DNA of 33,655 bases, taken from a virus. Made by a program: the position numbers and the translations under genes. Of the stretch, positions 3,897 to 5,153 are shown in pieces; the first letter of the stretch is position 1; each line of letters opens with the position of its first letter. The stretch is from positions 1 through 33,655 of IMG/VR virus record IMGVR_UViG_3300026478_000008; one strand, written 5' to 3'. The notes below the pieces were generated by a model that was given only the letters and a program-made list of their open reading frames with translations, was not told the DNA's origin and ran no database searches.

Positions 3897-4079
3897 ATGA
3901 AAAAAGAAACAGCAATCTATTTGGCGGGTTCTGCAAACAAACTGGCTAATTTGCTTGGCATTAATCGTGCTGCCATCAGTCAATGGGGGCAAGATATTCC
4001 AGTCAAGCGAGTAGAGCAGTTAAAACAATTAAAACCCGAATGGTTTGACAATTTTATTTTTTCAGGAGAAATTAAATGA
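3897..4079 (+). CDS. Cro-like helix-turn-helix repressor
   Basis: A 60-residue protein starting MKKETAIYLAGSANKLANLL. It matches the Cro/YdaS-type layout: an initial helix, then an HTH at about residues 12-32 (SANKLANLLGINRAAISQWG), then IPVKRVEQLKQL and a short C-terminal tail. It is expected to bind the CTTAACA half-sites just upstream and to tune the divergent early promoters. The start has no clear ribosome-binding site, unlike nearly every other gene here. Its leader is only about 30 bases, which may keep synthesis low. No CI-type partner is found in the genome. Confidence 0.8.
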   Translation: MKKETAIYLAGSANKLANLLGINRAAISQWGQDIPVKRVEQLKQLKPEWFDNFIFSGEIK

Positions 4080-4225
4080 AAAAACTAATCGCTGCTTGGC
4101 TAATAGCCGTTGTTTCTACGAGCGTTTGGGCTAATTGCTCAACTCATACGATTACCCAAGGTGGTCGGATGGTGACTTGCACCACTTGCTGTTTTGGTGG
4201 GAATTGCACTACCAATTGTTTTTGA
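4076..4225 (+). CDS. Small secreted cysteine-rich peptide, 49 aa
   Basis: The ATG overlaps the Cro-like stop (ATGA) and CAGGAGA lies upstream, so the two are translated together. Residues 1-19 form a signal peptide (MKKLIAAWLIAVVSTSVWA) with a type I cleavage site after VWA. The mature part is about 30 residues, rich in Thr and Gly, with six Cys residues (positions 21, 35, 38, 39, 44 and 48), including a CTTCC pair. It should go to the periplasm and be disulphide-bonded. I recognise no function. An early-expressed periplasmic peptide could alter the host envelope or block superinfection, which is speculation. Confidence 0.75.
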   Translation: MKKLIAAWLIAVVSTSVWANCSTHTITQGGRMVTCTTCCFGGNCTTNCF

Positions 4226-4231
4226 TTTTGT

Positions 4232-4260
4232 TTGACAAAAAAATCGTGTTAGGATAAATT
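4232..4260 (+). promoter_or_regulatory. Predicted sigma-70 promoter for the replication gene
   Basis: A consensus TTGACA, 17 bases, then TAAATT (four of six). Initiation would fall near 4267, at the start of the structured leader. It lies directly after the secreted peptide gene and about 100 bases before the replication gene. Confidence 0.55.
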
Positions 4261-4261
4261 T

Positions 4262-4351
4262 GAAACCTGGCTAGATAGGGAGTAGCTACCCTATCGAAAA
4301 GCGTCCCACCCTCGCCTGCCAGAAGTTTCATCAAGGGTGTTTTGAGGGTGG
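4262..4351 (+). promoter_or_regulatory. Structured leader with possible ribosome-site sequestration
   Basis: Three features can be seen. The ends pair: GAAAC and CTGGC at 4262-4271 match GCCAG and GTTTC at 4318-4329, apart from a two-base bulge. Inside is a hairpin, GATAGGG (4274-4280) with CCCTATC (4289-4295). Lastly CCACCCTC (4306-4313) is fully complementary to GAGGGTGG (4344-4351), the purine-rich stretch seven bases before the ATG. The overlapping CACCCT can instead pair with AGGGTG at 4334-4339. These are mutually exclusive pairings, as in a translational switch. If transcription starts at 4267 the first five bases of the outer stem are lost. Confidence 0.45.
4274..4295. repeat. Second TAGGGA-type inverted repeat
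   Basis: GATAGGG and CCCTATC form seven-base arms around AGTAGCTA. It shares TAGGGAGT and CCCTA with the inverted repeat at 3844-3858. It lies just downstream of the TTGACA promoter, so it could be an operator as well as, or instead of, an RNA hairpin. Confidence 0.55.
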
Positions 4352-4358
4352 AAAATTC

Positions 4359-5153
4359 ATGCACTACTACCAGTTCAATATCGGGGATTATCAATCCCAC
4401 ACGGCTCATTTGACCGAAATTGAAGATTTAGCCTATCGGCGTATGCTTGATTGGTACTATCTTCACGAAAAACCTTTCCCATGCGACTATGCAGAAATTG
4501 GCAGATTAATCCGTATGCGTTCGCATACCGATTGCATTGCGGTCGTATTGCACGAGTTTTTTGATGTTACAGATGCGGGTTGGATTCATCATCGTGCAGA
4601 CAAAGAAATTGTTAAAGCTGGAGAGAAATCCAGCAAGGCAAGTGAGTCTGCAAGAGCCAGATGGAACAAAAAACCTAATGAAAACAATAAGATATCGTCT
4701 GATGCGAACGCATTGCAAACGCAATCCGAAGGCAATGCTCCCAATACCCATAACACATTACACATAACACAAGATACAAAGAAAAAAACAACTGTCGTTG
4801 GTGCGCCTGAAGGCGTATCAATTGAGGTTTGGAAAAGTTTTGTTGAACAACGCAAAAAAGCCAGAGCAGTCATTACTGACTTGGTTATTACCCAAATTCG
4901 ATCAGAAGCTGAAAAGATTGGTTGGACGCTTGAACAAGCCATGTCTGAATGCGTGGCAAGGGGTTGGAGAGGTTTTAAGGCTGAATGGATTAAACAGCCT
5001 GTCGTGCTTAACAAGTCTGACATTGCAAGGGTGACAGTGCCTGGCACTAACGAGCGTGATCCTGCCCTTGTTAAGTTGGATGAAGATCGCAAATTGGCAG
5101 CACCGCCACCAATTGAAATCTTAAAGAAAATCCGTGAGGTAATTAACAAATGA
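4359..5153 (+). CDS. DUF1376-type phage replication protein
   Basis: A 264-residue protein with the DUF1376 N-terminal domain: MHYYQFNIGDYQSHTAHLTE, then EDLAYRRMLDWYY at 22-34, HEKPFP at 36-41 and GWIHHRADKEI at 74-84. Residues 100-150 are a polar, Asn/Thr-rich linker. Residues 153-213 form a second helical domain (VWKSFVEQRKKARA..., with GWRGFKAEWI at 202-211) found in phage replication-initiation proteins that recruit host helicase. The family's biochemistry is not settled, so origin binding or helicase loading is inferred. It is the first gene after the structured leader and the only replication-initiator candidate in the genome. Confidence 0.82.
   Translation: MHYYQFNIGDYQSHTAHLTEIEDLAYRRMLDWYYLHEKPFPCDYAEIGRLIRMRSHTDCIAVVLHEFFDVTDAGWIHHRADKEIVKAGEKSSKASESARARWNKKPNENNKISSDANALQTQSEGNAPNTHNTLHITQDTKKKTTVVGAPEGVSIEVWKSFVEQRKKARAVITDLVITQIRSEAEKIGWTLEQAMSECVARGWRGFKAEWIKQPVVLNKSDIARVTVPGTNERDPALVKLDEDRKLAAPPPIEILKKIREVINK

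Follow-up and report, generated by a model that had tools for sequence, protein, structure and literature searches.

The window analysed here, a stretch of 33,655 nt of viral DNA, carries on its + strand a gene for a 264-aa DUF1376 or primosomal replication protein (4359-5153; PF07120, E = 8.6e-23; phrog_6451, annotated as primosomal protein, E = 4.2e-38), preceded by a structured leader and, at 4232-4260 on the same strand, by a sigma-70-like promoter, TTGACA-17-TAAATT, that agrees with the consensus at 10 of 12 positions and gives a predicted start at about 4264-4268. Upstream of these, at 4076-4225 on the + strand, an ORF that ends just before the leader encodes a cysteine-rich peptide of 49 residues whose N-terminus is signal-like (MKKLIAAWLIAVVSTSVWANCSTHTITQGGRMVTCTTCCFGGNCTTNCF); it overlaps a small Cro-like gene (3897-4079) at the stop of the latter, and the window at 4135-4226 is matched by two Manatee Spring phage records. 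In 36 of 63 DUF1376 leaders the distance from the start of the -10 hexamer to the UA of the leader core is exactly 21 nt, and because the position of the -10 box is fixed in relatives, the predicted transcript start is the first base of the first helix, P1. Comparison shows P1 as the predicted first transcribed element, with the leader at the 5' end of the transcript. A start downstream of 4313, which the initial annotation had named as an argument against its own proposal of a translational switch, is not predicted, the promoter placing the start upstream of that position.

Every element named in the initial annotation of this leader is found in the window sequence where it had been placed, and all of them lie on the + strand. 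The 5' strand of the large stem consists of P1a, GAAAC, and P1b, CUGGC (together 4262-4271); it is conserved in relatives and pairs with GCCAG (P1b, 4318-4322) and, as indicated by sequence and folding energies, with GUUUC (P1a, 4325-4329). The inner hairpin, P2 (4274-4295), closes GATAGGG (4274-4280) on CCCTATC (4289-4295) around AGTAGCTA, a loop that contains the palindrome TAGCTA. A third short stem, P3 (4301-4315), which the annotation had not named, pairs GCG (4301-4303) with CGC (4313-4315) and displays the C-rich stretch as its loop, L3, TCCCACCCT (4304-4312), the putative switching strand; because this third stem is enclosed by the large one, the leader forms a three-way junction. Its helices are connected by short segments that make up a conserved core, UA / GAAAA / CU: UA between P1 and P2 (4272-4273; TA in 217 of 220 elements, with a parser that admits TA or CA only), GAAAA between P2 and P3 (4296-4300; GAAAAG in 205 of 220, the parser demanding GAAA), and CU, which together with the P1b 3' strand occupies 4316-4322 (CTG in 207 of 220).

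Downstream of P1, two stretches are complementary to L3. The proximal one, AGGGTG (4334-4339, copy 1), pairs with CACCCT (4307-4312) at -10.1 kcal/mol as a wider duplex, an interaction designated PK1. The other, GAGGGTGG (4344-4351, copy 2), is the ribosome-binding stretch of the gene and, as had been pointed out, is fully complementary to CCACCCTC (4306-4313), giving 8 Watson-Crick pairs and a duplex of -14.6 kcal/mol (PK2). The nested three-way junction of the window leader has a folding energy of -23.3 kcal/mol with the proximal pseudoknot not yet added, and the minimum-energy nested structure, in which P1 and P3 are opened and the C-rich stretch lies on the ribosome-binding site, has -29.9 kcal/mol, so that the two states are close in energy. 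In energy folding, one of the checks that the initial annotation had proposed, the single-sequence fold is unremarkable, the folding energy of the window leader alone not being significant against shuffles (z = -1.15).

The evidence for the fold comes from relatives. Viral contigs were searched with the protein, no RNA feature entering into the choice, and of the 80 best homologues of the gene about 90% have the same three-way-junction leader. A MAFFT alignment of all leaders shifted a marine subgroup by one base at GAAAA, and covariation was therefore counted in the register set by the conserved motifs. In this register both P2 and P3 show covariation. The second base pair in P3, which varies as CG, AT, TA or GC among leaders, is formed in 34 of 38, compared with 14.3 expected and a maximum of 23 in 2000 shuffles, and P1b, beside the core, is too invariant for a covariation test. 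The element is absent from seven of the homologues (L033, L046, L048, L049, L054, L055 and L057), in which the whole leader is replaced, and relatives that carry it mostly keep the pairings with compensation, a favourable outcome of the search for compensatory changes that had been suggested for this leader. Several of the first six of these homologues carry a different strong hairpin ahead of the start codon, in some followed directly by a T-run, which is possibly a different form of leader control.

The two loop pairings were tested across the family in a permutation analysis of 105 non-redundant elements (24 DUF1376 leaders, 50 other viral and 31 bacterial), in which loop complementarity was scored separately for copy 1, the strand 3' of P1, and for copy 2, taken from the end of copy 1 to the start codon. 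The P3 loop fits its own copy 1 with z = 20.5 and its own copy 2 with z = 14.8, values that none of 20000 permutations reached in either case; each subset is significant alone (for copy 2, z = 5.4 for DUF1376, 11.0 for other viral and 7.7 for bacterial elements). These z values assume independence after thinning and may be inflated by leftover relatedness, but the subsets and a reversed-loop control, which keeps the composition of the loop, agree with them. A stricter set of 121 elements, selected with copy 1 present and thus informative for copy 2 only, has at least 5 Watson-Crick pairs between the loop and its own ribosome-binding region in 78 cases (20.2 expected, maximum 37); expressed as a proportion, at least 5 such pairs with the ribosome-binding site are formed by 64% of own loops, 16% of foreign loops and 23% of reversed own loops. 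Copy 2 ends 2-11 nt ahead of the start codon in nearly all elements, typically 5-9 nt.

Individual leaders illustrate the same behaviour. The loop TTATCAC of L056 faces GTGATAA twice, the partner strands are likewise duplicated as AAGTGG in L020 and as TTGAAGG in L229, and L002 and L003 share one sequence from P1 as far as the P3 loop, after which the loop and both partners differ together. Copy 2 is weak, with 3-4 pairs, in some DUF1376 leaders (e.g. L001 and L010). Both pairings draw on the same L3 bases in 105 of 106 elements, and PK1 and PK2 are for that reason mutually exclusive; their median helix stabilities, -8.0 and -7.5 kcal/mol, are nearly balanced, which fits what a switch requires. 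Comparison among relatives establishes the predicted three-way junction, both pairings and their mutual exclusion. Both pairings noted in the initial annotation recur with different sequences in more than 100 non-redundant relatives, far more than in the permuted controls, and the comparative test supports its view of two exclusive pairings in a riboswitch-like translational leader that acts in cis.

That annotation erred in one respect, namely in knowing of no described element with this sequence. At curated thresholds Rfam gave no match in the window, and RF02996 (int-alpA), a family reportedly introduced in a 2017 survey, emerges under permissive thresholds and in relatives. The RF02996 match in the window (4264-4337; 25.8 bits, E = 5.1e-5) is the sole hit in the 33.7-kb record and lies under the gathering threshold of 35.8 bits, and relatives score over this cut-off (L015, 37.7 bits; L018, 36.4 bits; the L202 genome, 38.4 bits). 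The window leader has the three stems and the core CUA / CGAAAAG / CCUG, and matches the model over its full length (model positions 1-71; 4262-4329). By sequence homology through such intermediates, the window leader is a divergent member of RF02996, sharing with int-alpA the CUAG...CGAAAAG...CCUG three-way-junction core and an AAGGG segment 3' of P1, and differing from it in a bulge-split P1 and a longer P2. The location from which the family takes its name, between integrase and alpA, is not that of the window copy, which precedes a DUF1376 gene, and integrase neighbours were seen only at the bacterial copies L229, L221 and L212. RF02996 was found in 52 of 398 sampled Pseudomonadota genomes (about 13%), and pattern scans returned many more viral contigs with the element, hundreds in all; two consensus elements had no BLAST match among named phages. 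A literature search returned no function for int-alpA, the mention found being of its absence from the two test strains of one study, and a search for RF02996 found no mention.

The Rfam entry, which types the family as sRNA and marks no pseudoknot in its consensus line, differs here from the window copy, a replication-gene 5' leader with two exclusive loop pairings. The sRNA type invites the reading that the element works in trans, as an antisense or immunity RNA in the manner of P4 CI or P1 C4: its loop would be directed at ribosome-binding sites on other transcripts, such as those of an incoming related phage, and copies 1 and 2 would be its targets. L3 is indeed diverse among phages that carry the same gene, as would suit such a role, and in C4 and CI RNAs the loop likewise has two complementary targets, which precede replication or kil genes and one of which is at the ribosome-binding region; these too are phage or satellite RNAs that lie near replication genes. 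They act in trans after processing from a longer transcript, however, whereas the window element is the 5' end of its target mRNA, with about 30 nt from P1 to the start codon and no terminator, and the very similar loops (CCTTCA) common to many bacterial elements would all cross-react. We therefore regard the antisense reading as unlikely, and the gene arrangement argues for a cis leader over the sRNA type. P4 CI was also considered as a member of the same family and rejected: it matches RF01695 (C4), the P4 genome giving C4 at 74.9 bits and no int-alpA, and the C4 covariance model (RF01695) finds no match in the window.

Some viral contigs (L109, L187 and L472) carry two elements each. In L109 one element stands before a DUF1376-like gene and the other before another gene, and their loops differ, which suggests insulated control in cis.

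The RNA, and not the gene behind it, is the constant part of the system, because the phage and mobile-element proteins encoded downstream of family elements fall into 65 sequence clusters. They include DUF1376, HNH, GIY-YIG, DUF927, Dam, Rha, exonuclease and helicase genes as well as many orphans. This variety bears on the possibility of autogenous repression, in which the replication protein would bind the junction and stop its own synthesis. Such control would suit this single gene and has precedent among phage replication proteins, such as T4 gp32 (PMC535899). Unrelated products behind the same junction are nevertheless improbable sharers of an RNA-binding surface, which makes this explanation very unlikely for the family. 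More generally, a specific protein product is unlikely to be the regulator because the downstream products are unrelated, and the constant junction points instead to a small molecule, to a host factor that the elements share, or to a property of the fold itself. Among the genes behind the leader, HNH and GIY-YIG endonuclease genes form a large group, with a 29-member cluster and, for example, the loci L417, L311, L499 and L144, so that the switch may also govern homing endonucleases.

We consider it probable that this RNA works in cis as a translational switch of the int-alpA type, and we infer that its two pairings control translation. The transcript would begin at P1 and fold into the P1/P2/P3 three-way junction, after which the C-rich L3 would pair either with copy 1 (PK1), leaving the ribosome-binding site free and translation ON, or with copy 2, the ribosome-binding site itself (PK2), turning translation OFF. 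A variant of the OFF state would have P1 and P3 opened and the C-rich stretch and the ribosome-binding site joined in a longer helix. PK1 is assigned to the presumed ON state, and PK2 to OFF, because PK1 leaves the site free, copy 1 belongs to the conserved core in Rfam, and its pairing is the more strictly kept. The invariant UA/GAAAA/CU junction would be read by something that many hosts share and that tips the balance; candidates are a host protein, a small molecule or simply the kinetics of folding.

In another reading no ligand or factor takes part, and the leader would respond by itself, through folding kinetics or temperature, or would be a fixed translation attenuator holding early genes at a low level. 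Balanced helices, and the transcription of PK1 before PK2, would permit timed refolding of this kind, but a strongly conserved unpaired UA/GAAAA/CU exceeds the needs of a timer, and we judge such a device rather unlikely. For the translational switch that we prefer, the closest functional analogues would be the translational pseudoknot riboswitches SAM-II, SAM/SAH and preQ1-II/III, in which a loop likewise finds its partner in a 3' strand, sequestering or releasing the ribosome-binding site. In those riboswitches a single 3' pseudoknot strand holds the ribosome-binding site, whereas the window leader has two tandem copies that compete for the loop; Rfam gave no match of the window to SAM-II, SAM/SAH or preQ1-II/III. 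A conserved aptamer fold linked to a ribosome-binding-site platform, the arrangement by which a riboswitch is recognised, is found here at the sequence level, in the covarying junction and the exclusive pairings.

As a tentative wider reading, which we hold to be possible and somewhat short of probable, int-alpA RNAs could be orphan riboswitches of Pseudomonadota phages and integrative elements that sense a molecule which infected cells have in common and gate the translation of DNA-metabolism genes, among them replication and homing-endonuclease genes, through two competing pseudoknot strands in tandem. The element itself is already known, and its apparent mode of action is new: an RNA family without a function and typed as sRNA gains a testable mechanism as a translational switch in cis. 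Its trigger would reveal what phages and islands sense before replicating or mobilising, and if a small molecule is bound, the family would be a new class of riboswitch for which a reporter is ready to hand.

The terminal loop of P2 (4281-4288 in the window) shows a further regularity. In relatives this loop is often self-complementary and varied in sequence (UAGCUA, UCAUGA, UAAUUA, GAUC, GGCC, UGCA), and a 4-nt palindrome occurs in 48 of 66 distinct P2 loops, where shuffles give 25.6 and at most 37; the tetraloops UAGC and GACG are common exceptions. It is possible that two leaders could dimerise through a loop-loop contact of P2. Finally, in L264 (G022 contig 33) the element occurs three times within 3 kb in near-identical form, and at least two of these occurrences lack a clear copy 1; they may be degenerate or duplicated elements.
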